Positions 1 through 38,181 of a DNA stretch of 64,000 nucleotides are shown here, one piece after another (within the stretch, counting starts at the first letter, position 1; every line of letters begins with the position of its first letter). Both the position numbers and the translations under genes were made by a program. Below the pieces are notes generated by a model that had not been told where the DNA came from, ran no database searches, and saw nothing but the letters and a program-made list of their open reading frames with translations. The stretch is from contig WVZY01000077.1 of the NCBI GenBank assembly GCA_011772205.1, forward strand, positions 1 through 64,000, written 5' to 3'. Source of the stretch: Candidatus Latescibacterota bacterium (GTDB taxonomy: Bacteria; Krumholzibacteriota; Krumholzibacteriia; WVZY01).

Positions 1-927
1 CCGACCAAAACGCTCGCCAAGGAGGTCTTGAGGATCCGAAAGGCTGAGATTGCCCAGGACCGGTTCAAGATCCCCAAGAAACGCAGGCCACCCAAATTTG
101 AAGCCGTCTGCTACCGCTACATGGAGCATGCGAAGAAGAGCAAACGCTCCTGGAAGCGTGACGAGGAAACACTGAAGCTCGCCAAGACATTTTTCAAACG
201 AAAGCGAATAGATGAAATATCCAGCTGGGATGTGGAGAGATTCAAAGCTTCCCGAGTGAAACGCGTCTCCAAATCGACCGTGAACCGTGAGCTCGCTATC
301 CTGAAACGGCTGTTCAATCTGGCCATCGACTGGAATCTTGTAGCAAAGAACCCGGTAAAAAAGGTGGCTATGTACCGCATCGAGGAGAAGGTGATGCGGG
401 TGCTTTCACAGGAAGAAGAACAGAGGCTCATTTACGCTGCGGCTCCCCACTTTAAACCGCTGATCATCGTTGCCATAAACACCGGCATGAGACGGGGGGA
501 GCTACTCGATCTGCAATGGGAGCAGCTCGATCTTCAGAGCAGTACGATTACGATCAAACAATCGAAGAACGGCAAGGTTCGCCATATCCCCATAAACAAA
601 AAAGCCCAGGAAGCTCTTGAGAGCATCCCTGAGCCACACGAGGGACATGTGTTTCTTTATCGCGGATTACCTACCAAAGCCGTCAAAACTGCCTTCGCAG
701 GAGCGGTCAGGAGAGCGGGAATCCAGTGTTGTCGCTTCCATGATCTTCGTCACACATTCGCCACCCGCTTGGTCCTCGCCGGTGTTGACCTCGCAACCGT
801 CATGCAGCTTATGGGGCATGCGAGTATTTCGACGACTATGAAGTATGCCCATCCGTCGCCGCCGCATAAGCGGGAGGCTGTTGAGAGGCTCGTACCTGGC
901 ACGAAAATCGCACTCCAGATACTCTAA
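1..927 (+). CDS. Tyrosine recombinase (phage-type integrase), 5' end outside the window
   Basis: The frame is open from base 1, so the TTG at 28 is not a convincing start and the gene begins to the left. The visible 308 residues show an N-terminal helical core-binding domain (about nt 85-365) and a complete catalytic domain. Visible active-site elements are the Arg of TGMRRGEL (nt 490-492), the Lys region KNGKVRHIPI, HDLRHTFAT (His near nt 739), GHAS and the nucleophile Tyr of MKYAH (nt 844-846). Enzymes of this family catalyse site-specific integration and excision, often at tRNA 3' ends. A duplicated tRNA-Thr 3' end lies 4-6 kb to the right, so this enzyme may serve that element, although it lies outside the repeat pair. 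Family assignment is firm; the target is inference. Confidence 0.93.
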   Translation, partial: PTKTLAKEVLRIRKAEIAQDRFKIPKKRRPPKFEAVCYRYMEHAKKSKRSWKRDEETLKLAKTFFKRKRIDEISSWDVERFKASRVKRVSKSTVNRELAILKRLFNLAIDWNLVAKNPVKKVAMYRIEEKVMRVLSQEEEQRLIYAAAPHFKPLIIVAINTGMRRGELLDLQWEQLDLQSSTITIKQSKNGKVRHIPINKKAQEALESIPEPHEGHVFLYRGLPTKAVKTAFAGAVRRAGIQCCRFHDLRHTFATRLVLAGVDLATVMQLMGHASISTTMKYAHPSPPHKREAVERLVPGTKIALQIL

Positions 928-1811: not shown

Positions 1812-4358
1812 CTACTTCAGAAGAGCCATCTTCTTTGTTAACACCTTACCACCAGCTTTCAGGCAGTAGAAGTAGATACCTGAGCTGACGGGAACGCCCT
1901 GATGATCACTTCCATTCCAAGAATATTCCTTATACCCTGCATCAAGTATTCCATGCACAAGAGTTCGCACCAATTTTCCTTCTATGTTGTAGATCTTCAA
2001 GCTCGCGGTCCCTTTTTTAGGCAACGTAAACGAAATCGTCGTGGATGGATTAAACGGATTGGGATAGTTCTGGTACAAAGCCAGATTCCCAGTTCCAACC
2101 GTCACCGTGGCTGGAACTGAGCGGATTTCCGAGCCGTCCGCGAGGACCACCACAAGAACGTATTCGTGTTGCTCCCCCGGGGAAACCGAACGGTCCACGA
2201 ACGACCGCGCGTCCACCGGCAGTAAGGCCCGGCCGCTCACCACGGTGGTGTTGGCACCCTCGCTATCCCGCCGCAGGACCTGGAATCCTAGAACCTCATC
2301 GTCCGAAATGGTCTCCCACGACACGCGTACTGCACCGCTCTCCTCGACGGCGTCGAACCATCTGATCATCGTCGCAACCAGCGGTCCAAACTCGAAGATG
2401 TACAATCCGTCCGGCCCGTCGGCCAGAAAGACGTTATCGTAGTCCACGCACGTCCCTTCCGCGGACTGGCCGGTACTGTACGCCGTCACGTTGGTGGGTT
2501 GGGTGGGATCGCCGACATCCACGACTCGGACACCCGCCTCACCCTCGGATAGAAATGCGTACTTGCCTGCGATGGTGATCCAATTCGTCGACCCGGTGGT
2601 GCCCATCGATCCGACTTCGGTGGGTGCAGCTGGATCGGACACGTCGACGACCACTAGCCCGAGCGAGCCGTCGGCGATGTACGCGTAGCTCCCGGATACC
2701 GCGACGTCTCTCGTCCCTCCCGTGGTTGTATAGAACCCCACCTCGACCGGCTGCGCGGGTGGTAAGACCTCGATGATCTGCAGTCCCTTACTGGGAAGGG
2801 CGACGTACAAGTGGCTTCCGACCATCTGCATGCGTGCACTTGAGAAAGTGTCCCGACCGGTAAACATCCCGACGACCTGCGGCGATTGTGGATCCGAGAC
2901 GTCGAGCAGGTATATCCCGTAAGACCGTACCTTGATCGCAGCGTAGTCCCCGTCGACGGCGACGTTCAACACGTAGGGAGGCGATGCGCCCGTTTGCGGG
3001 GGGACGTAGTGACCCACTTCCACGGCACCCGTTGGGGTCACCTCCAGGATCCGCAGACCCATATGGCGGTTGGCTACATATAGCAGGTCTCCGACGGCGA
3101 GCACTTCGTGCACGTATCCCCCGTTCTGGTACGGCAAGAGTTCGACTGGATTCGAGGGGGTTGTGGCATCGATGATCCGAAGGCCAGACATCCCGCTCCC
3201 TGCGCACGCCAGCCGGGTTCCTCCGCTGTGAACCACTTGCACGTTTTGCAACGGTTCAACAGCTTCATACGTCGCGGCAATCTGCGGATCATCGAGGTTC
3301 GACACGTTCATGATCTTCGTCCACTGCCCGTGGCTGGTGTAGATTAAGTTGTCGCCGAATTCCATCTCCACGATTTCTTTGCCCGTAGGCTCCGTCCCGC
3401 GAAGTACGGGGGAGGTTCTGTCAGAAATATCGGCCAGCGTCAGCCAACCCGTATCCTTGTCGAAGGAAACCACATCACCCTTGAGGGATACGTCGGAAGG
3501 AAAAACGACGGCCCCGAGGTTGTTAGCGTTGATCTTGTTGGGATGGTCGGGGTCGGCTAGGCTAAATGTGAATAACATCCCCCAAGGTACTACGCCGTCG
3601 TCAACTCCGCCCGTTACGTACGCGTAATCGCCGTCTACGGCGACATCCTCGTACCATCCGGATGGCTGGCTCGTCGATCCCCGTTCGACCGGGTTGACAG
3701 GGTCGGTGATATCGATGACGATCAGGCGCGGCCAGCTAGTCGCACAAACGATATCACCCGAGCACGCGATGTGTCGGAGAGTTTCGGACATAGGAAACAC
3801 CCCAACCAGTACTGGTGACACAGGATTGCTGATGTCCACGACCCCAAGACCACCAGCGGCGAGGTAGATTTGGTCGCCCCGAATCGCAAGATCCGAAACA
3901 TACGGTAAGGCGAGGCTGTGGACAAAAGTGGGCAGCGACGGATCCGATATGTCGACGACTCCCATAGCTCCGGTTCGTGACCCGATGAAGTAAACATAAT
4001 CGCCTCTAAGCCCCGACAAACGTGGCACATCAGGTAGCAATTCGCGACCAATCCTCACCGGGTTGCCTTCGTCCGTGCAATCCAAGACGTCCAGGTAGGC
4101 GCCGTACCCGACATACGCGGTCCTTCCGTCCGCCGCGACGGTAATGCTCTGCCCAATTGCCAACCGGCCCAGAAGAAAGAGCTGCGGGTACGCGGCCTGA
4201 AACGAAGCAGGGGTGGCCGAAGGAACACGCACCCGACCGGCGTTTTGAAAAGCCGAACGAGTGTCGTTCCGCGCCGCTGAACGCATGGTCGTTATGATCA
4301 GCAGAACAAGGATTATTGCGGCAAGCGGCGCCGCCATCCTGCCTTGCGGAAGCGTCAC
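1812..4358 (-). CDS. LVIVD-repeat surface protein with C-terminal FlgD-like sorting domain
   Basis: Encodes 848 residues from a GTG start with GGAGG six bases upstream. Residues 8-27 form a signal or anchor helix. From about residue 60 to 650 there are many repeats of roughly 45 residues of the form 'GDYAYV..G..GL.VVDVSDP..P..VG', the LVIVD pattern thought to fold as a beta-propeller. Residues about 665-750 look like a fibronectin-type segment (VRVSWET..., YVLVVVL). The last 85 residues carry YQNYPNPFNPSTTISF, LKIYN, SSGIYFY and a terminal KKMALLK, the FlgD-like domain used as a sorting or anchoring module in FCB-group secreted proteins. It is probably exported to the surface. It lies left of the tRNA-Thr repeat pair. 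Confidence 0.88.
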   Translation of the reverse strand: MTLPQGRMAAPLAAIILVLLIITTMRSAARNDTRSAFQNAGRVRVPSATPASFQAAYPQLFLLGRLAIGQSITVAADGRTAYVGYGAYLDVLDCTDEGNPVRIGRELLPDVPRLSGLRGDYVYFIGSRTGAMGVVDISDPSLPTFVHSLALPYVSDLAIRGDQIYLAAGGLGVVDISNPVSPVLVGVFPMSETLRHIACSGDIVCATSWPRLIVIDITDPVNPVERGSTSQPSGWYEDVAVDGDYAYVTGGVDDGVVPWGMLFTFSLADPDHPNKINANNLGAVVFPSDVSLKGDVVSFDKDTGWLTLADISDRTSPVLRGTEPTGKEIVEMEFGDNLIYTSHGQWTKIMNVSNLDDPQIAATYEAVEPLQNVQVVHSGGTRLACAGSGMSGLRIIDATTPSNPVELLPYQNGGYVHEVLAVGDLLYVANRHMGLRILEVTPTGAVEVGHYVPPQTGASPPYVLNVAVDGDYAAIKVRSYGIYLLDVSDPQSPQVVGMFTGRDTFSSARMQMVGSHLYVALPSKGLQIIEVLPPAQPVEVGFYTTTGGTRDVAVSGSYAYIADGSLGLVVVDVSDPAAPTEVGSMGTTGSTNWITIAGKYAFLSEGEAGVRVVDVGDPTQPTNVTAYSTGQSAEGTCVDYDNVFLADGPDGLYIFEFGPLVATMIRWFDAVEESGAVRVSWETISDDEVLGFQVLRRDSEGANTTVVSGRALLPVDARSFVDRSVSPGEQHEYVLVVVLADGSEIRSVPATVTVGTGNLALYQNYPNPFNPSTTISFTLPKKGTASLKIYNIEGKLVRTLVHGILDAGYKEYSWNGSDHQGVPVSSGIYFYCLKAGGKVLTKKMALLK

Positions 4359-4771
4359 GGGAAACCTCCACTCTTCAGATTAATGGCATCATTAGGACTT
4401 CCACTATAGAAATAGACACTTGTCCCTTCTATTAATCTTGTCCGCATTGGTAACTTTGAACTTGCACCAGCTCATGGGATTAAAAATGGTCCAAAACCGC
4501 GCCGCAATACCTGGGGGGACGAAGGAGTGCAAGTGATGGGATAGTCGGGGCAGAGGCCCCAGCCACTAGGACTGCGACTCCACGCCCCTCGCAAAATCAT
4601 TCCGTTACATCAATCCGTTGTTGACACTCCTACTATAGCACAAAACCACGGGGGTCACAATGACAATCGTTTAACTACCGATTTACGATCAAGGGGGATC
4701 ACCGGAGAGACATTGCACGGGGCAACAAGGCTCACCTCAACACGTCCACGAATCCCTTGAGGCTACGACCA
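4359..4771. other. Gene-free stretch upstream of the LVIVD gene
   Basis: No supported coding frame. It holds the ribosome-binding site of the LVIVD gene at its left end. A small hairpin is visible near 4546-4560 (GGGGC-AGAG-GCCCC). I found no convincing -35/-10 pair. The stretch lies between the LVIVD gene and the tRNA-derived repeat, so it is probably part of the same accessory segment. Confidence 0.5.
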
Positions 4772-4877
4772 GCCAAATCCAAAGTGTAATAAAACTGTAA
4801 GGTGGGGGTTTTCGGCGGAACTGCCAGATCGCGTAAGTCTTTGAATAATTTGGAGCTGGAGAGCGGAATCGAACCGC
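4772..4877. repeat. Direct repeat copy A: tRNA-Thr 3' end plus downstream flank (att-like)
   Basis: The 106 bp align without gaps to 6445-6550 with 16 mismatches (about 85% identity). The last 28 bp are identical and correspond to the 3' part of tRNA-Thr: CCA, acceptor strand and T-arm up to AATCGAACCGC. Similarity stops abruptly at 4877, in the T-stem, so this copy has no D-arm or anticodon arm and cannot be a tRNA gene. Such a truncated 3' end facing an intact tRNA is the usual scar of tyrosine-recombinase integration. Confidence 0.8.
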
Positions 4878-4973
4878 GTCCGAACTTGCAATTTTTCTAG
4901 CGCTGACATTTCCTCCATAAATCAATTCACGAAAATCACACTAATTCACATCGACTTCACTCCGACCATTTTT

Positions 4974-5909
4974 TTAAAAGGCATCAACGTTAATTTGGGT
5001 GCCTTTTATTTTTTTGGCGTACTCGTCGATCTTGTCTTTAAAGGTCTGATCCCTTTTTTCGCCCCACTTGAGCGAGAACTCGCGGAATTGCTTTCCGTTC
5101 TCTTCGAGCTTGTTGAGTTTTATGATCTCCTCGATCATCGCCTTGATCTGCGTGCGCTCCTCCTGGGTGACCTCGGCACCCATATCTTGCTTGTCTAGCA
5201 ACTTGCTAAGCTCCTTTGAGAGCTTGCCCGCCTCCTGACGCAAGCTTGTTAACTTGCATTTGTAGACTTCAATTTGGCTATTGAGCTCGCTCACATGTTT
5301 CTTTGGATCCTTTGCCTTGGCCATCTTCTCGATAATCTTATTGACGTCTTCGCGGACTTTTTCCTCGGTTGCCAGCAGGGTCTTCACCTGCTTGGCGATC
5401 TTGCGGCAGGAATTGGCGATCTTGAAGTACTCGTCCGCCTTGGTGCCCGCACTCGCCACGAGCCCCGCAATCCCCTTGCCGATCTTGATCGTGCACCAGA
5501 TGATCTTCACCCCACCCATGATTTTAAATTTTCTAAAGGCCTCGTTTTCTTTCTGCATCATCTCCCACTTTTCGTTGACCCTCCGATCGGCTTCATTCTG
5601 GAGATTGGCGATAAGCTTCTCTAGTTCCTTGTTGAATTTAACCTCAAGACTCTTGGCCTGAGCTTCCGACGTCTCCCTGAGTTCGCCGATTTCTTCGTCA
5701 TACGCCTTGATGGATGGTTCGATCGCTATTTGTTTGTAATCCTTGAGGTAATCCAGCGTCGATTTTAGCACACGGTCGAGATCGCTCGGGTTCAGCTCTT
5801 CTTTCCCCTCTTTCCCCGAAATGTTCAGCTTGATCGTGCCCTCAGTCGGTAGCTTAATGTTCTTCGGAGTCACATCGATCAGTTTGATATTCATAACATT
5901 ATTACCCAT
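4974..5909 (-). CDS. Coiled-coil protein with a central hydrophobic segment, unknown function
   Basis: Encodes 311 residues from ATG 5909, chosen because AGGAG lies eight bases upstream; the longer frame to 5981 lacks a site. The N-terminal 60 residues are beta-like (MGNNVMNIKLIDVTPKNIKL, TIKLNISG). The remainder is highly charged and helical with long heptad-like stretches. It is broken at about residues 128-155 by a glycine-rich hydrophobic segment (GGVKIIWCTIKIGKGIAGLV). No signal peptide is visible. It is the only complete gene between the two tRNA-Thr-derived repeats, so it is the apparent cargo of that unit. A long helical bundle with one buried hydrophobic segment recalls alpha-helical pore-forming proteins, but this is only a shape resemblance and I recognise no family. 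Confidence 0.75.
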   Translation of the reverse strand: MGNNVMNIKLIDVTPKNIKLPTEGTIKLNISGKEGKEELNPSDLDRVLKSTLDYLKDYKQIAIEPSIKAYDEEIGELRETSEAQAKSLEVKFNKELEKLIANLQNEADRRVNEKWEMMQKENEAFRKFKIMGGVKIIWCTIKIGKGIAGLVASAGTKADEYFKIANSCRKIAKQVKTLLATEEKVREDVNKIIEKMAKAKDPKKHVSELNSQIEVYKCKLTSLRQEAGKLSKELSKLLDKQDMGAEVTQEERTQIKAMIEEIIKLNKLEENGKQFREFSLKWGEKRDQTFKDKIDEYAKKIKGTQINVDAF

Positions 5910-6011
5910 GATGAGTTCTCCTTTCTGGGTTCCGCCACTAAATCCACTCAGGCGGAACCGTCGGATGACTTTCGAATGCAATCGCCTGCACGCAATTGCC
6001 TTCGGATTATG

Positions 6012-6332
6012 TCAAACCGCAAGCGGTTTGAACGATAAGTGCAACAAAAGCTCCTTTTCAAGAATGGGTGCCCCGTCCACGGATTCTCCGCTGCTTCTGA
6101 TGCTTGACGTCAGCACCTTGCCACCGGCTTTCAGGCAGCCAACGAGCATGACTGAAGACGGATAGAAGAGTGTGATAGCGCTGCTGCGAACAAAATTAGA
6201 GCCGTTGCGTTGGCAGATGATATCAGATGAACTCCCCTGATTCTGTGGCTCTATATAAAATCTGGAAGGTGTGTGGCTATGGTGAATCTCCCCAGGAGGC
6301 CGGATTATACTATTAACTGATCTGTAATTCAA
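6012..6332 (-). pseudogene. Degraded remnant of a FlgD-like C-terminal sorting domain
   Basis: An open frame of 106 codons without a plausible ribosome-binding site. Its only recognisable part is CLKAGGKVLT (nt about 6109-6138), which matches the last residues of the LVIVD protein in the same relative strand; the DNA agrees at 26 of 30 positions with 1837-1866. The sequence around it does not match, and the KKMALLK tail is replaced by unrelated residues. I read it as a decayed fragment of a second surface-protein gene inside the repeat-bounded segment, not as a functional gene. Confidence 0.35.
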
Positions 6333-6444
6333 TAATTAATCCATCCCCGAAGCCATACCAGGATGCATCTTGAAACAATTCATTCTCGATAAAAGACCGC
6401 TCGCGACACACCAAGGCCCGCATACCAGCTGTTTGCGACATACT

Positions 6445-6550
6445 GGCAAATCTAAAGTGTAAGATTAGTGTAAGATGGGGGTTTTCGGCGGAACTGCCGG
6501 AAGACGTAACTCTTTAAAAATATTGGAGCTGGAGAGCGGAATCGAACCGC
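6445..6550. repeat. Direct repeat copy B, overlapping intact tRNA-Thr (att-like)
   Basis: Partner of 4772-4877. Positions 6524-6550 are the 3' end of the intact tRNA-Thr gene, and 6445-6523 are its downstream flank. The flank contains two GTGTAA motifs close together (AAAGTGTAAG and TAGTGTAAG), which could be arm-type recombinase sites; that is speculation. Because the flank as well as the tRNA end is duplicated, the unit moved or duplicated together with more than a minimal core. Confidence 0.8.
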
Positions 6551-6599
6551 TGACCTACGCATTACGAGTGCGTTGCTCTACCGGCTGAGCTACTCCAGC
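6524..6599 (-). tRNA. tRNA-Thr (anticodon CGT), CCA encoded
   Basis: The reverse strand folds as a complete cloverleaf: acceptor GCTGGAG with CTCCAGC, D-stem GCTC/GAGC, anticodon stem ACGCA/TGCGT with loop CTCGTAA (anticodon CGT, decoding ACG), T-stem AGCGG/CCGCT with loop TTCGATT, discriminator T, then CCA. The gene is intact and its 3' half is the crossover region of the neighbouring repeat pair. Confidence 0.96.
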
Positions 6600-6855
6600 T
6601 CCGAATTCGATGTATGTTGGTACAATAAAAAGTTATCTCAGGGAATATGCTCGCTCTAGCGAGCTCCCCGTCAGCGATGTGATCAGCTTTTCAAACATTC
6701 TATGTCCTGAAGCACCTAAAATCAACCTTTTTCATTCGCGCTTGAGCTGCTAACCTCTCGCTATTCGATCCAGCGCTGTCGCTGGGGAGTCCCCGCGCAA
6801 TTTTGGGTGCAGGCATAAACCCGCCGCCAGGTATTTAACGCAAGGAACACTCGCA

Positions 6856-10892: not shown

Positions 10893-11870
10893 TCAACGAT
10901 CGTCAAGCGAAAGTCCGAGCTCTGACCGCTCCATCTTCTTGAGTTTTCTTCTGTTCCGAAGCTTTACCCGAATAAATATGAACAAAAACAAAACTGCGAT
11001 GATCGTGAACAGCGGCCCCGTTTGAAAGATCAAGAGACGCGAGTGATAGCGTTTCTGGACCGTCTCATGGAACCGCACATAGAATTCTATGATACTCTCG
11101 TTCCATTGAGCGACAAACGCATCGGTGAAACTCCGTGTTTCCGCAAGGAGAGACAGGAACTGCGGGAGCTCCTCCAGTCCGTTCTCGAAGCGAAACGTGA
11201 ATGCGGCGTAAGATATGCGATATGCATCTCTTGCCTGCATCTCCGCCGCCGGAAACGCTGCTGCAATTCGCCCGAGTGAAGGAGTTTTTCCGGACCAAAC
11301 AGCGTTCATCAACCGCCAATTCTCCAGAACCGACCACTGCCCGGCCTGCCATTGAGCGAGGCCCTCGACGAACCACAGCGGCATCGGCACGGGCGCAACG
11401 CGCTGGGCAAGCAAAAGATGAGACAGCTCATGAGGGATCACCTTCTCGAGCGAATTCCACGCGCTGGCCGCTCTTTTGGCATCGACCAGCATGACCTGAC
11501 TTTCCATGAACGCAAACGCGATTCCCCATGTAGGCAGGTCGTTTTGCGCTCTACGCTGGTAAGGCTTGAGGTCGGGGATCACTTGAATCTGAAAAGGCGC
11601 GACAGCATTCAAACCGAGCGCCCCGGCAAGCACGGGGATTCTCTCCTCGCATATCTCCGCGATTCGATGTGCGATTTTCTTGTTCTTCTCCGAGTAGAAC
11701 ACGCGCACCGGATAGGATCTAACGGGAATGGAGTGCTCGAGATCGAACTGGCCAGCGCCTGCGGCGGTCACGGGTGCAAGGATGGCAGCAACCAGCACTA
11801 TTGCGAGAGCCTGGCTGCAAACAACGGGACCATGACCTCGATGTTCCATATCAATCATCCGTGGATGCAT
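10893..11870 (-). CDS. Membrane-anchored peptidase MA-like metalloprotease
   Basis: Encodes 325 residues; AGGAG lies six bases before ATG 11870. A signal peptide or anchor is at residues 16-40. The central domain carries HELSH at about residue 150 (in 'EKVIPHELSHLLLAQRV'), an HExxH zinc site, followed by 'PLWFVEGLAQWQAG', where the Glu is the probable third ligand. This is the layout of the peptidase MA (gluzincin) family. Near the C-terminus (about 280-302) is a transmembrane helix (LFTIIAVLFLFIFIRV) with a basic cytoplasmic tail. The start overlaps the 3' end of mnmA by 20 bases, so the two are translationally coupled. Substrate unknown. Confidence 0.85.
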   Translation of the reverse strand: MHPRMIDMEHRGHGPVVCSQALAIVLVAAILAPVTAAGAGQFDLEHSIPVRSYPVRVFYSEKNKKIAHRIAEICEERIPVLAGALGLNAVAPFQIQVIPDLKPYQRRAQNDLPTWGIAFAFMESQVMLVDAKRAASAWNSLEKVIPHELSHLLLAQRVAPVPMPLWFVEGLAQWQAGQWSVLENWRLMNAVWSGKTPSLGRIAAAFPAAEMQARDAYRISYAAFTFRFENGLEELPQFLSLLAETRSFTDAFVAQWNESIIEFYVRFHETVQKRYHSRLLIFQTGPLFTIIAVLFLFIFIRVKLRNRRKLKKMERSELGLSLDDR

Positions 11871-25839: not shown

Positions 25840-28800
25840 TTACTTTAGCAATATCATCTTTCTTGTTTTAACAAACTTCTTCGTTACGAGCTTGTAGAAA
25901 TACACGCCGCTCGAGACCGGCTGTCCTGCATCGTTGCGGGCGTTCCAGCCTTTGGCATATTCACCCGCGGGATTCTCCTCGTTTACCAGCGTCTTCACCA
26001 GCTGCCCGGCGACGTTGTAGATTTTCAACGTCACATGGGCCCGTTCCTTGATCGAGTATTTGATTGTTGTGCTCGGATTGAATGGGTTCGGGTAGTTCTG
26101 GGCGAGGCTGTTTGTATAGTAGGGGGTGGCGTCTGCGCCTGAAGGATCTTCGACGGGTAGGCTAAATAGATGCCGCAGGACACTGACCAGGTGATCCACA
26201 CGATCAGGCACTCCTGCAGGAACATCGTCACGGATATAATGGAAGCTAAAGCCTGAGAGGACCACGGCAACCGGGTTGCCCAGCGCGTTCAACGTGTCGT
26301 ACGCCACAACGGCACCGTCGTTCGCAGCGCCCGAGCCCCCGTACGTCATCTCCAGGGTCGTGCTCGCGACCGGCCGGATCACATCGAAGTCATTGATGCC
26401 CGGACAGCCGCCGTAGACAACGATCGTGTCTTCCTCGAGTGGAACACCGTGATCGAAGATCCCGCCATCCTCACCGATCACCAGCGGCGATATAGAGAAG
26501 CTCACCGTGTGATCATCGTCCACCAACTGGTACGGAATGTACGTGCTGATGAACTGGGACGAGGACGGATTCGTCAGCGTTTCCCATTCTGAGGCCATGT
26601 TATCGCCGGAGAAGTAGATACCGGCTCCTACTGGGTCCGGATGCTGATCCATGAAGAAATAGAGCATCGCGAAGTCATCCGTCTCGTTCGCGCTCATGTC
26701 ACCAACCGTACCTCTGTTGAGGTTACCGGAGTTCCAGATAATCTTCCGGTAGTTCGGGAATAGCTGGTTTTGAACACTCCACATACGACCTGTAAGACCA
26801 TTTCCGACCAACGAAGACGGCCCGCGCTTATCGAAGCGGTCGACCCAGTCCATGATCCCTATCATCTCGAACGCGGAATTGAAGTATGGCTCGGCACCTC
26901 TGCCGCTGAATTGATCAACATATAGGATGTTTCCGCCGTATCCACTGGGCAGGATCTGCATCTCCATCGGGGCCGCGCAAGCCTCTTCGATATCGTCCAC
27001 TGTGCCGGTGAATTGGCTCCACCACGTCGAAGTCACGTTGGCATCCGTCGCACCGAAAAAGAACCACAAGGTGTCTCCGTTGGTGAAGAAATGATCATTC
27101 ACATCGATGCAAAACCTGTCAGGCGCAGGACCGGTGCGAGGACCGCTATGCTCTGTAAAACACGTGTCGAGACGGAACTGATACCACTTCCGGCTGCCAC
27201 AGATCACCGAGTCGACAACCGGCCAGCGATAACTATCCTCCACGATCTTATCGAGCGGCATCGGCTTGCTCTGAGGATCGCGGGAGAGATAGAAATAAAC
27301 CGCAGATCCAAAACCGGTGTTCGGATCGCTCCCGAGGCCAAATGTCGGCTCGCTCACGGTAATGATTGCCGAGTCACCCGGTACATTATGTCCATCTAGA
27401 TAAGATGTGATGTCGATCGCCGCACCGATTCTGGCCGTCCCAAGGGAGTCACCCCCCTCGGGAAAGGTATCGTTGAAAAGATCGATGTCTCGAACGCTGA
27501 ATTGCGGACCCGTTACTCTGACCCGGATGAACCTCACGTTGTCGTAAAGAGGCCCATGCCTATGGCAGTCGGGTGGCTGGTAGGAATTGCAATAGAAACC
27601 GCACAGATCATAGCACCCGAGCGCGAGCTGTATCTGTTCAGCTCCCGGATCTATCAAGTCTGCATAACTTTCAATCCATCGATGCCACCTTGGACCGTAT
27701 CCGAAATTAATCCAAGCACGATCTCTCCAGTCTCCAGGGCAGCCCCCAATCCAGGTCCGGGCATGCCAGATAAAAGCGACCAATTCGGTGAAGGGATTGT
27801 CTTCGTATACGTCTATTTCGAAATACGCAGCATCTGCATCAGATGGAACGGGACTGCCGTAAATGTCCGTATCCCAATCAATGAGCGGCGACCAGATCTC
27901 ATTCGTGAGATAAAGCATTCCTCCATCCACTTCCTTCCCATATGGCACCGCTTTCTGTGCGGGATGGCCGGCACAAGCCATGTCGACCGTCGATCCCTTG
28001 AAGAATCCCCACAGAAAAGAGAGATTGTGCACGCAGGGATCTTCTTGGAGGACGGCACTTCCAGGGAACAGCCCCGCAAAATCCCCGTATGCCAGTTTGG
28101 CGTCTGCGTACCAATCTCCATCGGCTGTTGCCGTATCCCCAACCGCTTCCGATTCGAAATCCTGGTAGTCGAGCGTGCTCGCAGTATCCGACACGAGGAT
28201 GCTGTCGATGACGATCGCTCCATCGGAGTTATACATCCCATCTTGATCGGACCAGCCAGTATCGGAGTCAAAGCGGAAACGAAATATCACCGAACCATCG
28301 AGCGAGTCTGCCGGTACGGTCAGGTTTGCCGTGATGTCCCCGTCTCCATCCAAAGCGAGCAAGTCAACCCATGCACCGTCCTTATTTCTGTATTGAACAT
28401 ACGTGTAGTCGCAGTATGGCTCGGTATCATGATGTGCTTTGAAGGAGAGTGTCACATCGCCGCTGGTTGCAAATTCAACCGACTGGAACCGCTGGCCCCA
28501 TGAATTTCCATACCCGGGCAGTTTCTTGTACGAGCAGAGATAGGTATCCGAGGCATTCGGCCTGGCGCCGCACCACAGGGACTGGTTCCCTTCGATTGGC
28601 ACCAATCCGCCAAAGTCGCCACCATTCAATCCTGAAAAATCGTCCACATGGAAAAACACTCCCATAGGAGCTGTGAGATCAACGCCGAACCAGCCCTGCG
28701 GATCAGCCATGCCCGGGCCATCAAAATCAAAATCTGCCAGCACAAATGTTTCCACAACAGCTGTAGCGAAAAGCTCCCTCGCATCCAGCGGCATGTCGCT

Positions 28801-28932
28801 TCCTGTGTTGTACTCGTGAAAGATGTATCTCTTAGGGCTGCTCTTTTCAGGAGCCTTTCGCGCGAAGCTCCCCCAGGAAACCAGCATCAATGTCAACACC
28901 GCAATAAAAAGGCAAATCCATCGCCGTTTCAT
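25840..28932 (-). CDS. Giant exported surface protein, paralogue 1, with FlgD-like C-terminus
   Basis: Encodes 1,030 residues; AAGGAGG precedes the ATG. A signal peptide covers residues 1-25. Two beta-sandwich-like modules follow (about 50-260, 'FDFDGPGMADPQGWFGVDLT', 'FHVDDFSGLNGGDFGGLVP', 'SLWCGARP'; and about 260-480). Next is a domain with 'FSVRDIDLFNDTFPEGGDS' and 'FCIDVNDHFFTNGDTLWFFFGA'. About 650-900 is a Rossmann-like segment ('NILYVDQFSGRGAEPYFNSAF', 'VDRFDKRGPSS', 'KIIWNSGNL', 'AGIYFSGDNM') resembling GATase-like folds. The C-terminus has NYPNPFNPSTTIKYS and ends TRKMILLK. It is very close to the proteins at 31529 and 35068. Function unknown; secretion to the cell surface is inferred. 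Confidence 0.88.
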   Translation of the reverse strand: MKRRWICLFIAVLTLMLVSWGSFARKAPEKSSPKRYIFHEYNTGSDMPLDARELFATAVVETFVLADFDFDGPGMADPQGWFGVDLTAPMGVFFHVDDFSGLNGGDFGGLVPIEGNQSLWCGARPNASDTYLCSYKKLPGYGNSWGQRFQSVEFATSGDVTLSFKAHHDTEPYCDYTYVQYRNKDGAWVDLLALDGDGDITANLTVPADSLDGSVIFRFRFDSDTGWSDQDGMYNSDGAIVIDSILVSDTASTLDYQDFESEAVGDTATADGDWYADAKLAYGDFAGLFPGSAVLQEDPCVHNLSFLWGFFKGSTVDMACAGHPAQKAVPYGKEVDGGMLYLTNEIWSPLIDWDTDIYGSPVPSDADAAYFEIDVYEDNPFTELVAFIWHARTWIGGCPGDWRDRAWINFGYGPRWHRWIESYADLIDPGAEQIQLALGCYDLCGFYCNSYQPPDCHRHGPLYDNVRFIRVRVTGPQFSVRDIDLFNDTFPEGGDSLGTARIGAAIDITSYLDGHNVPGDSAIITVSEPTFGLGSDPNTGFGSAVYFYLSRDPQSKPMPLDKIVEDSYRWPVVDSVICGSRKWYQFRLDTCFTEHSGPRTGPAPDRFCIDVNDHFFTNGDTLWFFFGATDANVTSTWWSQFTGTVDDIEEACAAPMEMQILPSGYGGNILYVDQFSGRGAEPYFNSAFEMIGIMDWVDRFDKRGPSSLVGNGLTGRMWSVQNQLFPNYRKIIWNSGNLNRGTVGDMSANETDDFAMLYFFMDQHPDPVGAGIYFSGDNMASEWETLTNPSSSQFISTYIPYQLVDDDHTVSFSISPLVIGEDGGIFDHGVPLEEDTIVVYGGCPGINDFDVIRPVASTTLEMTYGGSGAANDGAVVAYDTLNALGNPVAVVLSGFSFHYIRDDVPAGVPDRVDHLVSVLRHLFSLPVEDPSGADATPYYTNSLAQNYPNPFNPSTTIKYSIKERAHVTLKIYNVAGQLVKTLVNEENPAGEYAKGWNARNDAGQPVSSGVYFYKLVTKKFVKTRKMILLK

Positions 28933-31528: not shown

Positions 31529-34500
31529 CTACTTCAAAAGTATCATTTTCTTCGTCTGCGTGAAATTCTTCGTCACAATTCTGTAGAAGTACACGCCACT
31601 GGAGACCGGATTGCCCTCGTCGTTGCGGCCATTCCATCCCTTGGTGTATTCTCCCGCAGGCTTCTCCTCGTTCACCAGCCTCCTCACCAGCTGACCCGCC
31701 ACGTTGTAGACCTTCAAGGACACATGCGCACGCTCCTTGATCGAGTACTCTATGGTGGTAATCGGATTGAACGGGTTCGGGTAGTTCTGGGCGAGGCTGT
31801 TCGTGTACCGTGGCGTTTCGCCAATTCCCGTGGGATCCGAGGGAAATGATACCAGGTGCCGGATGATATCGACCAAATGATCGTCACGATCCGATAGCGG
31901 TGCAGGAACATCGTCGCGGATGTAGTGGAAGCTGAATCCAGAGAGTACTACGCTGACCCGGTTCCCCAGTGCGTTCAACGTGTCGAACGCCACAACGGCA
32001 CCGTCGGTGGCCAAACCTGTACCACCATAGGTCATCTCCAGACTCGTTCCTCCTGCCGGCTGAATCACATCGAAGTCATTGATCGTCGGACAGCCGCCGT
32101 AGACAACGATCGTATCTTCCTCGTCCGGCACACCATGGTCGAAGATTCCTCCATCCTCGCCAATCACCAGCGGCGACTTGCCGTGGCTGCCGGTATGATC
32201 GCCGCTGACCAGATTGTGCGAAATGAACTTGTTGATGAAGGCTGACGAGGAGGGATTGGTCAAGCCGGCCCATTCCTCGGCCATGTCATCACCGGAGAAG
32301 TAGATCCCTTCCATGGTCGGATTTGGATGCTGATCGAGGAAGAAGTCGAGCATCGCGAAATCATCCGCTTTAATATTGGAGCCATCCCCCACCGTCCCGC
32401 TGGAAAGATCTCCCGAATTCCATATGATCAGTTGGTAATTCGGGTGGAGCTGCTGTGCAACGTCTCGCACGTGATATCCTAAAGCATCTGCCGATAAAGG
32501 ACCCACAAATGCACCACGCTTATCGAATCGATCAACTAGATGATCGATCTCCAATATTTCAAACGCGGAATCAAAGTATGGCTGAGCTCCACCAGCGTTG
32601 AATTGATCGACATAGAGAATATCTCCCCCTCTCGCCGGACCTGCACCTGGGAGAATCTGCATCTCCATAGGCGCCGAGGCAGCCTCTGCGATATCCCATG
32701 TCGTACCGGATCCCTGACTCCAGTAGGTTTCCTCGCCCAATGTGTTCTCAGCACCAAAGAAGTAGTACAGCGTATCGCCGTTTGTAAAGAGGTGGTCGTT
32801 TACATCGATACAGAATCCGTTAACGCGGATGGATACGCACGAACCATTGGACCTGGTACAAGCCGTATCGCAACGGAATTGATACCATTTCGTGCCGCTA
32901 ATGACCGTTGAATCGACCAGAGGCCAGCGGAAGCCGTCTTCTTCCAGCATATCCCCCATTTTCCCTGGCTGGCTCGGTGGATCGATTGAAAGGTAGCAGT
33001 AGACGGCCGAGCCAAATCCGCTTTTCGGATCGGGCTCCTTGAGACCGGCGTCCGGATCGTAGCAAGTTACAACCGCTGAATCGCCAGGTATAATGTTTGG
33101 GTCACTATAGGCTATATCGTGCGCCGCATCGATACGACCTGTTCCTAAAGATGTCCCATTCTCGGGGAACGTATCCTGGAAAAGGTCTAAGTCACGGGCA
33201 CTCCACTGGGGGCCGTTCGTCGAAATACGCCGGATCTCGACATTATCGAACAGCGGCGAATGGCTGTGGCAGGGATCGAGAGAACCGTCAAAAAACCATT
33301 GCATATCCACAACGCCCAACGCAATCTGTATGTGAGAAGCGCCCGGATCGATATATTCACCTAAGGTGTAGGTGCTTCTGGACCAATCCTTGCGGGGACC
33401 ATAGTAGATTCCAGATCCCTGGTCTTTCCACTGACCGGGACATCCATCTTTCCAGGATCGAACGTCCCATGTGTAATAGACGTAGAGGCCTGGCAGATCC
33501 CGGTACACATCGAACGATAACTCGATTGTCGATCCAACTCCGGCCAGAGCAACCGGTGGTGACCAGATCGAATTAGTGATGTATTGGTCATACTCGTTCT
33601 TTTTTGGAACCGCAATCTGTTCGGGGTGGCCGCCACAAGCGTAGGTTTCAGTAGATCCCATGATAAACGCCCACATGCAGCTGTAATTCCAATGGCAGGG
33701 ATCTTCCTGCAGCAACGCTGAGCCTGGAAAGAGACCGGCAAAATCCCCGTACCCTGACTTTACGCAGCATTCCCAGTCGCCGTCCGTGGTGGCCAGATCG
33801 CCAGGGGACTCATCCTCGAAATCCTCGAAGTCATAAGTAGTGAGAGCCGTCTGTACGGTAATGCTGTCAACCAGTACGGCCCCGTCCGTGTTCAAGAAGC
33901 CGTCTTGATCTGAATACGCACCATCGGATCCGAAGTGGAAACGGATTTTTACGAAACCATCGTGTCCAGCAGGGATGGCGTCGGTCCGCAGCTGTTTGCT
34001 CCCAGTACCGTCGAATGTCGCGATGTTAACCCAATCATCACTGGCGATATCATCAATGTTTTCTATGGAGTCGCACGAGGTATTCGTCGCATATTCGAGG
34101 TATGTTTGGTCAAATCCCCCTTCAGAATCCCACGCGATGAGATAGCTGATAGCAATCGCCTCAGTATCCGGCACCTCAATACACTTGAAGCACCACCCTT
34201 GATCCCAGTCGTTTCCATACCCAGGCAGTGCGGCGTAGACACATAAGACAGGATCTGCGGTATCCGGCCGCGCGCCGCACCAGGCCGATTGGTCGCCTTC
34301 CAAAGGCACTAGGAGGCCGAAGTCCCCTCCGTCAAGACCTGTAAAATCATCGACATGGAAGTAGCAGCCAAGTGCTGCTGTCCAGTCTTGACCGGTCCAA
34401 CCTTCGTTCGTACAAAACACACCTCCCACATCAAATGTCCAGGAGCCAAGGATGACCGTGTCCGCCTGTAAGTATGACCTGAGTCCCTGCTCTTCCAAAG

Positions 34501-34651
34501 GACGATCCAAATCCAGGACGCTTAAAGGCTCTGGCTGTATTTCCCAGTTGGCTGGATTTCGCTCTTGAGAGACTTTGCGCGCAGATAGAAGCGATGCTAG
34601 CAAAGAGATCATCACCAAAGCGAACAACGTTTTTCTCGTGAAGGCGCTCAT
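31529..34651 (-). CDS. Giant exported surface protein, paralogue 2, with FlgD-like C-terminus
   Basis: Encodes 1,040 residues; AAGGAGG lies upstream of the ATG. Signal peptide residues 1-24. Same order as its paralogues: two beta-sandwich-like modules ('GCYFHVDDFTGLDGGDFGLLVP', 'DFEDFEDESPGDLATTDGDWEC'), the 'WSARDLDLFQDTFPENG' domain, a Rossmann-like domain ('DILYVDQFNAGGAQPYFDSAF', 'LIIWNSGDL', 'EGIYFSGDDM') and the FlgD-like tail ending KKMILLK. It has more cysteines than paralogue 1, in conserved pairs such as 'QGWCFKCIEV' and 'WECCVKSG', which suggests disulfides after export. Closest to paralogue 3, especially in the N-terminal half. Confidence 0.88.
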   Translation of the reverse strand: MSAFTRKTLFALVMISLLASLLSARKVSQERNPANWEIQPEPLSVLDLDRPLEEQGLRSYLQADTVILGSWTFDVGGVFCTNEGWTGQDWTAALGCYFHVDDFTGLDGGDFGLLVPLEGDQSAWCGARPDTADPVLCVYAALPGYGNDWDQGWCFKCIEVPDTEAIAISYLIAWDSEGGFDQTYLEYATNTSCDSIENIDDIASDDWVNIATFDGTGSKQLRTDAIPAGHDGFVKIRFHFGSDGAYSDQDGFLNTDGAVLVDSITVQTALTTYDFEDFEDESPGDLATTDGDWECCVKSGYGDFAGLFPGSALLQEDPCHWNYSCMWAFIMGSTETYACGGHPEQIAVPKKNEYDQYITNSIWSPPVALAGVGSTIELSFDVYRDLPGLYVYYTWDVRSWKDGCPGQWKDQGSGIYYGPRKDWSRSTYTLGEYIDPGASHIQIALGVVDMQWFFDGSLDPCHSHSPLFDNVEIRRISTNGPQWSARDLDLFQDTFPENGTSLGTGRIDAAHDIAYSDPNIIPGDSAVVTCYDPDAGLKEPDPKSGFGSAVYCYLSIDPPSQPGKMGDMLEEDGFRWPLVDSTVISGTKWYQFRCDTACTRSNGSCVSIRVNGFCIDVNDHLFTNGDTLYYFFGAENTLGEETYWSQGSGTTWDIAEAASAPMEMQILPGAGPARGGDILYVDQFNAGGAQPYFDSAFEILEIDHLVDRFDKRGAFVGPLSADALGYHVRDVAQQLHPNYQLIIWNSGDLSSGTVGDGSNIKADDFAMLDFFLDQHPNPTMEGIYFSGDDMAEEWAGLTNPSSSAFINKFISHNLVSGDHTGSHGKSPLVIGEDGGIFDHGVPDEEDTIVVYGGCPTINDFDVIQPAGGTSLEMTYGGTGLATDGAVVAFDTLNALGNRVSVVLSGFSFHYIRDDVPAPLSDRDDHLVDIIRHLVSFPSDPTGIGETPRYTNSLAQNYPNPFNPITTIEYSIKERAHVSLKVYNVAGQLVRRLVNEEKPAGEYTKGWNGRNDEGNPVSSGVYFYRIVTKNFTQTKKMILLK

Positions 34652-35067: not shown

Positions 35068-38000
35068 TTACTTCAAAAGTATCATCTTCTTCGTCTGCGT
35101 GAAGTTCTTTGACACAATTCTGTAGAAGTACACGCCGCTGGAAACGGATTCACCCGCATCACTGCGGCCATTCCATCCCTTGGTGTATTCTCCAGCAGGC
35201 TTCTCCTCGTTCACCAGCGTCCTCACCAGCTGACCCGCCACGTTGTAGACATTCAAGGACACATGCGCGCGCTCCCTGATCGAGTACTTGATCGTCGTAC
35301 TCGGATTGAACGGGTTCGGGTAGTTCTGGGCGAGATCGTTCGTGTAGTGCGGTGTATCGCCTGCTCCAGTTACATCGGGAAGAGTATGCCTGAGAAAATG
35401 GAGAATGTCCCTCAAATGATCAATGCGATCTTTTACTCCCAAAGGAAGCCCATTATCTCGAATGCAGTGGTAGCTGAATCCGGAAAGCACCACCCCGATA
35501 GGATTCTCGAGCGCGTTCGTCGTTTCATATGACACCACGGCACCGTCGGTTGGATCATTCGTGCCGCTGTACGTCATTTCGAGATTTGCGCCGCCTAACG
35601 GCTCGATCATGTCGAAATCATTGATGATCGGGCAGCCGCCATAGGCAACGATCGAGTCGACACCCCAATAATAAGTGTCGAAGATCCCGCCAACCGTGCC
35701 CGCCACCAGCGGCGACACGTCATGGTTTACCGTATGGTCGCCCGTGACTAGGTTGTGCGGGATGAATTTGTCGATGAATTGAGTCGAAGAAATCCCCGTC
35801 AATTCCACCCACTCCTCGGCCATGTCATCACCGGAAAAGTATATTCCAGCACCTATTGTGTTTGGATGCTGATCGAGGAAGAAGTCGAGCATCGCGAAGT
35901 CGTCCGTTTCGTTCGCGCTCCCATCGCCTACCGTTCCATGGGCTAGGTCCCCCGAGTTCCAAATGATCGTTCTATAAAACGGATGCAGTTGGTTCCCGAT
36001 GTTGACGACACGGCCGGCAAGCCCGTTCCCAGCCAGCGAGGATGGTCCCCGCTTATCGAAACGGTCGACCTGCTCCCAAATCCCTGATTCCATGAGCGCC
36101 GTGTCGAAAAACGGCTGAGCTCCTCTCCCACTGAAGTTGTCGACGTAAAGGATGGTCCCGCCTCTCGCCGGACCAGCACCCGGCAGAATCTGCGTCTCCA
36201 TTGGTGCGGCGCAAGCTTCATTGATGTTGGCACCAATCCCGGAGCCCTCGCTCCAGTACGTCGTGTTCGCACCCGCATCGGTAGCACCAAAGAAGAACCA
36301 TAGAGTGTCCCCATTGGTGAAGAAGTGGTCGTTGACATCGATGCAAAACCGGTCGTAGACCGCTCCCATCCGTGGGCCGGAGCGCCCAGAAAAGACCGTA
36401 TCGCATCGGAACACATACCACTTCCGCCCATCGCAAATGACCGAATCCACTACCGGCCAGCGGAAGCCATCCTCCACTATTTTATCGAGCGGCATCGGTT
36501 TGCTACGAGGATCGCGGCAAAGATAGAAGTAGACGGCAGGTCCGAATCCGGTATAACCATCGATCCCAATGCCCAACTCTGGCTCGCTCACCATCACAAT
36601 TGCCGAGTCACCAGGAACATTGCTCCCGTCAAGATACTGTGTAATATCGATCGCCGCATCAACTCGCCCCGTTCCAACGGCCTGTCCATTTTCAGGGAAC
36701 GTGTCATTGAAAAGATCGATGTCCCGGACGCTCCACTGCGGGCCGACTGTGGAGATGCGCCGGATGATGACGTTATCAAAGAGTGGAGAATGACTGTGAC
36801 ACTCCCCTGGCGAACTAGAACTGCACCATAAAGGACACATATCGATAACACCAAGTTGGACCTGAAGGTGTGAAGCCCCGGGCGCAACCAGATCTCCCAC
36901 CCAGTTAACGGATGTCGCCCAATCCTTATGTGACCCATAATAAACGAAGCCCCGACCCTTCCAATGACTCGGACAATCATCGACGATGGACCGAATATGC
37001 CATGTATAGTAGATTAAGCTTGGAATGGGGAGATCTCGATAAACATCGAACACAAATTCAAAGTGGGATCCGGTACCAGTGATGGCCACCAATGGGGAGC
37101 GGATGGCGTTGTTTATGTACTGACCCTGTTCGTTCCCTTTCGGGACTGCCAGCTGCGCTGGAAATCCGCCGCACGCATATGATTCCGTGGAACCGTTGAC
37201 GAACGCCCACATGCACGTGAGATTCAACTTGCAGGGGTCTTCTTGGACCAGAGTAATTCCCGGGAAAAGACCGGCAAAATCGCCAAAGCCGGACATTATA
37301 CAGCATTCCCAGTCGCCATCCGTCGTGATGAGATCACCTGGAGATTCATCTTCAAAATCTTCGAAATCATAGACGGTCAGCGCAGTTCGAACGGTGATAC
37401 TGTCAACAATCACCGCACCATCTGTGTCCCACAAACCATCCTCGTCGGACCAGGCAGCATCGGACCTGAAACGGAATCGAATCTTCACATGACCCTCATG
37501 TCCTGCAGGGATGGTGCCGATCCTCAATTGTTTGCCCCCAACATCGTCGAAGGTCGCTAGGTTGACCCAATCATCGCCAAGGATATCATCTATGTTCTGC
37601 AAGGAGTCACATGTGCTCTTTGTCGCATACTCGAGGTATGTGCAGTCAAATCCCGGTTCAGAATCCCAGGCGATGAGATAGCTGATGGCAATCGCCTCGG
37701 TATCCGGAACATCGATGCACTTGAAACACCAACCCTGATCCCATGCATTTCCATATCCCGGAAGCTTGGCGTAACCACACAGGATCATGCTTGCCGTATC
37801 CGGTCGAGCTCCGCACCAGACTGATTGGTTGCCCTCAAGAGGAACTAAGTTACCGTAATCACCGCCGCCCAGACCAGCGAAGTCGTCGACATGAAAATAG
37901 CAACCGGATTGCTCCGTAAGATCATGCGTCGTCCAGCCTTGAGCATCGCACACAAGACCTGAATCGAACGTCCAATAGGCTAACACAAGCGTGTCCGCCA

Positions 38001-38181
38001 GAGCGGCAGATCGAGGAACCAGCACACCCGAGTGGTAATCCATATCGAGGGGGGTGGAATTATCGAGCCGCATTTTGGCACGCCCCGAGTTCGGACCTAC
38101 TGATGCCTCCCTCGCCATCGCCGACGCTATCGATACGGCAATGACGATCATCATCCCGAACATGAAAGCTCTTTTCTTCAT
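35068..38181 (-). CDS. Giant exported surface protein, paralogue 3, with FlgD-like C-terminus
   Basis: Encodes 1,037 residues; GGGAGGGC lies before the ATG. Signal peptide residues 1-23 (ends ASAMA). The modules match the other two: 'VLAYWTFDSG...GWTTHDL', 'GCYFHVDDFAGLGGGDYGNLVP', 'WSVRDIDLFNDTFPENG', 'FCIDVNDHFFTNGDTLWFF', 'TILYVDNFSGRGAQPFFDTAL', 'IIWNSGDLAHGTVGDG', 'AGIYFSGDDMAEEW'. The FlgD-like tail (about 955-1037) ends KKMILLK. The N-terminal half is closer to paralogue 2, while the 'RDPRSKPMPLDKIVED' part is closer to paralogue 1, a mosaic pattern. A strong promoter lies at 38403-38431. Confidence 0.88.
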   Translation of the reverse strand: MKKRAFMFGMMIVIAVSIASAMAREASVGPNSGRAKMRLDNSTPLDMDYHSGVLVPRSAALADTLVLAYWTFDSGLVCDAQGWTTHDLTEQSGCYFHVDDFAGLGGGDYGNLVPLEGNQSVWCGARPDTASMILCGYAKLPGYGNAWDQGWCFKCIDVPDTEAIAISYLIAWDSEPGFDCTYLEYATKSTCDSLQNIDDILGDDWVNLATFDDVGGKQLRIGTIPAGHEGHVKIRFRFRSDAAWSDEDGLWDTDGAVIVDSITVRTALTVYDFEDFEDESPGDLITTDGDWECCIMSGFGDFAGLFPGITLVQEDPCKLNLTCMWAFVNGSTESYACGGFPAQLAVPKGNEQGQYINNAIRSPLVAITGTGSHFEFVFDVYRDLPIPSLIYYTWHIRSIVDDCPSHWKGRGFVYYGSHKDWATSVNWVGDLVAPGASHLQVQLGVIDMCPLWCSSSSPGECHSHSPLFDNVIIRRISTVGPQWSVRDIDLFNDTFPENGQAVGTGRVDAAIDITQYLDGSNVPGDSAIVMVSEPELGIGIDGYTGFGPAVYFYLCRDPRSKPMPLDKIVEDGFRWPVVDSVICDGRKWYVFRCDTVFSGRSGPRMGAVYDRFCIDVNDHFFTNGDTLWFFFGATDAGANTTYWSEGSGIGANINEACAAPMETQILPGAGPARGGTILYVDNFSGRGAQPFFDTALMESGIWEQVDRFDKRGPSSLAGNGLAGRVVNIGNQLHPFYRTIIWNSGDLAHGTVGDGSANETDDFAMLDFFLDQHPNTIGAGIYFSGDDMAEEWVELTGISSTQFIDKFIPHNLVTGDHTVNHDVSPLVAGTVGGIFDTYYWGVDSIVAYGGCPIINDFDMIEPLGGANLEMTYSGTNDPTDGAVVSYETTNALENPIGVVLSGFSYHCIRDNGLPLGVKDRIDHLRDILHFLRHTLPDVTGAGDTPHYTNDLAQNYPNPFNPSTTIKYSIRERAHVSLNVYNVAGQLVRTLVNEEKPAGEYTKGWNGRSDAGESVSSGVYFYRIVSKNFTQTKKMILLK

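Follow-up and report, generated by a model that had tools for sequence, protein, structure and literature searches.

Repeated tRNA-Thr 3' ends in a Candidatus Latescibacterota genome as probable attachment-site remnants of a small integrative-unit family

In the window (the whole 64,000-nucleotide stretch of DNA), the 3' end of a tRNA-Thr(CGT) gene occurs twice, once in the intact gene and once in a truncated copy less than 2 kb away. The question raised by this locus is whether the two copies bound one small integrative unit, or whether they belong to a larger structure. In an ungapped alignment, positions 4772-4877 and 6445-6550 were identical at 90 of 106 positions, with 16 mismatches, and the final 28 bases (4850-4877 and 6523-6550) were fully identical, representing 27 tRNA bases and the one base immediately outside the tRNA. 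The best match obtained anywhere in the window with 100 shuffled queries was at most 50/106, and window segments compared without the repeat pair reached at most 49/106 matches. The repeat pair that had been described in the original prediction was therefore reproduced far above shuffled queries. The arrangement it had given was also confirmed: the intact tRNA is on the right and the truncated copy, whose similarity breaks off around the T-arm, is on the left. The recombinase open reading frame likewise ends at 927, outside the pair. The features of the two sites are as follows.

4770-4849, plus strand: P' arm of the left site, carrying a pair of TGTAA-type repeats (4785 and 4796).
4850-4877, minus strand: truncated tRNA-Thr 3' end at a putative decayed junction, with crossover core and P arm missing.
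6443-6523, plus strand: P' arm adjoining the intact tRNA, with repeats at 6458 and 6469; putative outer right boundary (attR).
6524-6599, minus strand: intact tRNA-Thr(CGT) from tRNA prediction, with its 3' end facing left, toward the truncated copy; putative integration target.
6562-6568, minus strand: TTACGAG of the anticodon loop, proposed as the crossover region between inverted core arms; the tRNA identity of the other copies ends there.

The left copy was used as a query against its own genome (G000; 81 contigs, 4.13 Mb), and eight copies or part-copies were found, the window pair included. Those outside the window were located on contigs C74 (two), C26 (one) and C34 (two, plus one armless half); all had one orientation, and the strong ones stopped at the identical base. 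The recurring unit is ~130 bp long and consists of an ~80-bp arm and the 3' half of tRNA-Thr(CGT). In the aligned copies the ~80-bp arm is followed by 46-48 nt of tRNA, through the anticodon loop, with only 27 tRNA bases in the left window copy, and the whole tRNA-Thr was present among the G000 copies only at window position 6524. The 28-bp identity, which had been called a core, is not the recombination core: elsewhere the tRNA identity continues through the anticodon stem-loop (~46-48 nt), and the inverted-repeat core lies there. The left window copy has lost this stem-loop core, and a search of 4841-4990 for TTACGAG found no occurrence.

Among 58 relatives, those with the arm all belong to this one family, and other genomes had at most the tRNA itself. 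No genome from beyond the family contains the ~78 bp that adjoin the tRNA part, which identifies this stretch as the element's P' arm and not as native flank. A model of the P' arm plus half-tRNA (R1) matched the left site at 4770-4879 with 88 bits and the right site at 6443-6572 with 116 bits. At E ≤ 1e-11 it matched 4 of 80 genomes of the phylum, all from one family: G000 (7 matches), G002 (1), G004 (12; CP070677.1, a MAG labelled Candidatus Latescibacterota) and G005 (17). At E ≤ 0.01 the respective numbers were 11, 4, 19 and 24, with intact tRNAs and weak matches included. A second model, of the core plus P arm (R2), found G000, G002, G004 and G005 among 11 genomes searched. Scanning viral contigs with exact arm patterns gave no match; the 27-base tRNA-Thr anticodon core was present in seven viral contigs (L196-L202), where it may be part of a tRNA gene or of an attP.

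In complete sites the anticodon stem-loop, as core, is flanked by a P' arm on one side and a P arm on the other, and the same paired AGTGTAAG motif is present in both. The P' arm, left of the core, carries AGTGTAAGATAACTGTAAGATG (consensus of alignment A1); the P arm, more than ~130 bp right of the core, carries AGTGTAAGAAGAAGTGTAAGA and is nearly invariant in 11 sequences (alignment A3). The core is an inverted repeat around TTACGAG. In a lambda-type attP an inverted core stands between paired arm sites, and the complete sites share this layout. The sites occur in two forms. In form A the tRNA 3' half makes up the left side; in form B, found in G004 and G005, another sequence stands in place of the tRNA half and only the anticodon-loop core is left. 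One form-B core was a perfect 15-bp inverted repeat around the seven bases, and the palindromic form-B core at 1.33 Mb in G004 reads CGCCCGACCAACGCA-TTACGAG-TGCGTTGGTCGGGCG.

Several further observations were made around these sites. The intact tRNA-Thr(CGT) of G005 (L077:7811-7891; G005:3337810) differs in its anticodon stem (TGCTCA-TTACGAG-TGAGC), as in outgroup loci L064 and L068, and has neither the element core nor an arm; this gene may be an immune or replaced target. An ATPase gene, which we take to be ABC-F-like, lies beside tRNA-Thr in G004 (L069:5602-7563) and in G005 (L077:5959-7812), in opposite orientations and with 76% identity. At L080 (~6566-6605) and L081 (~11640-11682) a half-tRNA is followed by inverted CCAGCTCCA, giving a hairpin at the 3' end of a secreted-protein gene, and such hairpins are perhaps reused as terminators. 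An end of the TCGGTGGACCA type recurs within or next to half-tRNAs and integrase fragments (L072 ~6700, L084 ~6070, L139 ~7090 and L144 ~4200) and is probably an insertion sequence that struck the site family.

The window begins within a recombinase gene and continues with the features of an integrase-bearing unit.

1-927, plus strand: tyrosine recombinase (integrase), PF00589 E 2.5e-35, over the cut-off; N-terminus cut by the contig start.
1099-1761, plus strand: open reading frame of 220 aa, cargo or accessory of the integrase unit, no family match.
1812-4358, minus strand: cargo gene of the integrase unit, encoding a secreted LVIVD repeat protein whose C-terminal tail is of FlgD/T9SS type (PF08309 E 1e-54, PF13860, PF18962).
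4418-4769, no strand: non-coding stretch that lies upstream of the cargo gene and is also conserved next to G004 and G005 sites (blastn matches in L070, L074, L075, L076, L079 and L081).

The integrase belongs to the unit left of 4877. It is 74% identical to the G004 integrase, which is itself 3.5 kb from a site. Relatives of at least 65% identity were found only in the site-bearing genomes G000, G002, G004 and G005 and in none of G001, G003 and G006; in G005 and G002 this integrase type is present only as fragments. In the G004 integrase unit an HTH_17, excisionase-type open reading frame stands in front of the integrase, with a run of N upstream of the pair, and the unit also holds a convergent secreted C11-peptidase gene with the tail, the conserved non-coding region and a site. 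The layout of a plus-strand integrase followed by a convergent secreted gene with tail is common to the window unit and those of L076 and L153. L076, from a relative, has a P' end on an integrase-bearing unit in the same layout as the window left copy. L153, a 3.5-kb contig from a MAG labelled Planctomycetota, has the same integrase and secreted-gene order with different cargo and no site on the contig; thus, the integrase and the layout are retained and the cargo is variable. Among viral contigs the window integrase found only distant relatives, at 11 loci and with no more than 32% identity, and no site accompanied any of them. Assignment as an integron integrase IntI was rejected, with 85 bits to TIGR02249 versus a cut-off of 265.

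A stacked array would be expected to have complete P'-core-P junctions inside, a P-only site at one end, and the whole tRNA joined to a P' arm at the opposite one. In G000, the site at C34:105.7k, beside glmM, has a P arm and no P' arm; complete sites are present at C34:114.4k, C74:44.0k and C74:47.6k; and window 6443-6599 has a P' arm with the whole tRNA. The sites at C34:109.1k, C26 and window 4770 have a P' arm and no P arm match, and were therefore taken as decayed junctions. In outgroup genomes G014, G023 and G030, which are from other families, glmM adjoins tRNA-Thr(CGT) (3 of 29 loci, L040-L068). Considering this adjacency together with the P-only end beside glmM, the ancestral glmM/tRNA-Thr site appears to be split in G000. 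The situation that the original prediction named as refuting, relatives with no empty-site variants, did not arise, since these three outgroup genomes have island-free tRNA-Thr genes beside glmM; within the family, no genome was found with glmM beside an uninterrupted tRNA-Thr. The half-tRNAs on C34 show 81% identity over 47 nt at 105.7k, two mismatches in 46 at 109.1k and none in 46 at 114.4k, and so the most diverged is the one farthest from the tRNA, as tRNA-proximal stacking predicts, with three points only.

Some results stand against a single island. The surroundings of glmM in G001 and G002-G006 were searched, and no tRNA half was found. Contigs C34, C26, C74 and C71 are separate, with no overlap joining them in array order, and a single island across them is therefore putative. 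The joined C34 and C71 flanks give a tRNA fold that ARAGORN calls tRNA-Ala(CGC), because the C34 half is decayed. Joining C34, C26, C74, C71 and C63 by end overlap was rejected, as a 59-bp overlap marks a common repeat and not a join: the end of C34 (last 59 bases of L010) is the reverse complement of the start of C26 (first 60 bases of L009), with 59 bp shared, as if both contigs enter one repeat.

We consider it probable that both window repeats are what is left of attachment sites used by a family of small integrative units with tRNA-Thr(CGT) as target, and that the window locus is part of a stacked island. The results support two earlier proposals for this locus, namely that tyrosine-recombinase integration left a scar at tRNA-Thr and that the elements are stacked and in part decayed. 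The lambda-type tyrosine integrase, whose C-terminal part is encoded at 1-927, would recombine the tRNA anticodon stem-loop with attP, assisted by an excisionase-like HTH protein (known from G004). The attP would carry the tRNA's own 3' half, so that each new unit would keep the tRNA intact and leave a 3'-half copy behind. Units would become stacked as further ones enter at the tRNA-proximal end, and those with no integrase of their own may be mobilised in trans. The putative island ends are 6443-6599 (outer right) and the P-arm-only half-tRNA beside glmM on C34 (outer left), and 4770-4877 would be an internal junction from which the core and P arm were lost later.

To describe the units between sites, 17 site-to-site intervals of less than 7 kb were hand-picked from same-strand neighbours, with the weak pair of L127 (22 bits each) left out. 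Exactly one open reading frame of at least 110 aa was present in nine of them, and 23 of the 29 open reading frames in the 17 intervals read from the P' side toward the P side. No integrase match was found inside any of the 17, and these units thus keep att sites with the recombinase absent, as in CIMEs. Orientation was also counted over 45 listed sites, from which four bare halves were left out and sites with no open reading frame of 150 aa within 1 kb were dropped, giving 38 and 40 sites for the two sides. The nearest arm-side open reading frame points away from the site in 30/38 (8/38 opposite; p = 5e-4, an optimistic value since clustered sites are not independent), and on the other side the nearest one has the same direction in 29/40.

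In G004 and G005, each a single contig, sites are found on both strands across the whole chromosome. Complete P'-core-P sites stand alone there, P-only and P'-only forms are also present, and many of the sites touch runs of N. This chromosome-wide scatter is not predicted by simple stacking. Little gene order is common to G004 and G005 (the part of G005 compared being 400 kb plus the site loci), and therefore the scatter would have come either from rearrangements that split arrays or from insertion of units elsewhere in the chromosome. A search for empty sites by G004/G005 synteny was abandoned, the gene order being too scrambled. Two pairs of sites have the same neighbour genes in both genomes, L074/L136 (72%) and L073/L084 (about 60%), so that some sites are probably older than the G004/G005 species split.

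The stand-alone sites of G004 and G005, the start of most neighbouring genes on the arm side, and the resemblance of some half-tRNAs to terminator hairpins at gene ends (L080, L081) would also fit a dispersed non-coding repeat (promoter, terminator or packaging) that spread by homologous recombination, the integrase being incidental. We regard this as unlikely in view of the two arms and the motif common to them, the match of the half-tRNA to the target gene, the P-only and P'-only boundary forms, and the co-occurrence of sites with the integrase.

The attachment-site reading also bears on the 1.67-kb segment between the window repeats, which contains the following.

4974-5981, minus strand: sole complete gene of the 1.67-kb unit, with a TTG start at 5981 or ATG at 5909 (335 or 311 aa).
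6012-6332, minus strand: remnant of a secreted-protein gene, with a tail motif (6109-6138) that is an 87% repeat of 1837-1866.

The tRNA-proximal unit spans 4878-6443 and holds this one gene and the remnant of the secreted-protein tail. The next unit leftward terminates in the P' arm at 4770; it contains the LVIVD protein gene, the 220-aa open reading frame and the integrase. Of the original description of an enclosed 1.67-kb unit with one complete gene, the gene was recovered; the repeat pair does not bound one intact unit, because the left copy belongs, as its P' end, to the neighbouring unit with the integrase. A self-contained 1.67-kb unit bounded by both repeats and still able to excise is very improbable: it would have the expected intact tRNA on one side, a truncated copy on the other and one gene between, but no recombinase lies inside, and the left copy lacks both the anticodon-loop core and the P arm. 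Functional attL and attR sites are consequently not present on both sides, and with no TTACGAG and no P arm in the left site, excision by this route should be impossible. On its sequence, the 4770-4877 copy is best explained as a decayed internal junction, and the 1.67-kb unit as a fossil that should no longer excise. Profile searches with the 335-aa protein gave no family above the cut-off; it is coiled-coil-like by eye, and weak matches to tape-measure, PDC and other families were rejected, as they look like coiled-coil noise. Elsewhere in the window, three large minus-strand paralogues of ~1000 aa (25840-28932, 31529-34651 and 35068-38181) match the secreted gene beside the G005 tRNA-Thr at 36-38% identity.

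A decayed tandem duplication of the tRNA-Thr gene, which would leave one intact copy and a partial remainder as seen here, is scarcely credible because the dispersed copies share a ~78-bp non-tRNA arm, with half-tRNAs at many unlinked places, every one of which breaks off within the anticodon loop, close to it or before reaching it.

The tRNA-Thr system resembles several described islands. In Dehalococcoides, islands lie in tandem at a single RNA gene, ssrA, with more than 12 direct repeats of its 3' end, and many have no integration genes; they use a serine recombinase and a 20-bp repeat, and none is farther than 100 kb from ssrA (PMC3146451). Tandem stacking, 3'-end repeats and units free of integration genes are shared with the tRNA-Thr system (PMC3146451). 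No serine recombinase at ssrA is involved here; the recombinase is of the tyrosine family and the target is tRNA-Thr, and the system further differs in its ~300-bp two-armed sites and chromosome-wide dispersal. CIMEs, in ICE/IME accretion arrays, are att-bounded, recombinase-less units stacked at a tRNA 3' end that can be mobilised by the integrase of a related element (PMC7563491). The units described here likewise have att boundaries and no recombinase genes and are stacked at a tRNA 3' end, but they are 1-6 kb long with one to few genes, unlike CIMEs and ICE accretion arrays (PMC7563491). The Methylophilaceae island has repeated 20-bp tRNA-Lys 3' ends, and with it and the tycheposons the tRNA-Thr system shares tRNA-bounded cargo, a tyrosine recombinase and recurring tRNA 3' ends (PMC10872708). 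Long arms, a tRNA-free site form and dispersed sites set it apart from both. Two hallmarks of a tRNA-targeting tyrosine-recombinase island were found at the window locus, namely a PF00589 recombinase and a direct repeat of a tRNA 3' end with the intact tRNA at one end. Given the Dehalococcoides, CIME and Methylophilaceae parallels, the array taken alone counts as a variant of an established type. Literature searches on tRNA fragments, serial integration, Latescibacterota integrons and Krumholzibacteriota found no description of such an array. The array parallels known stacked islands, and the dispersed network of two site forms with many small units may be new.

In integrons, one recombinase serves many sites, and gene cassettes, often single genes, lie in one orientation between them. 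These properties are shared by the tRNA-Thr system, unlike the recombinase itself, which is not IntI, and the site, which is a two-armed att with a tRNA core. A possible, and distinctly tentative, reading is an integron-like, separately evolved cassette system, in which the integrase would act in trans on dozens of two-armed sites derived from tRNA-Thr. Each site would deliver a single gene for a surface or secreted protein, oriented away from the P' arm, and the second site form would have swapped the tRNA half for a palindromic core, allowing units to live at many loci.

The many integrase-less units of 1-3 genes, the tRNA-free site form and the dispersal of sites over two single-contig chromosomes are unusual, and the combination of such small units with scattered complete sites blurs the distinction between a genomic island and a gene-cassette system. 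The alignments yield a concrete att anatomy of arms, core, and P-only and P'-only forms that is directly testable, in an uncultured host group for which few mobile elements have been described. Where truncated tRNAs come as a pair, they may be what remains of a larger array, and if the cassette reading is true, a tRNA island would in this family have become a chromosome-wide network.
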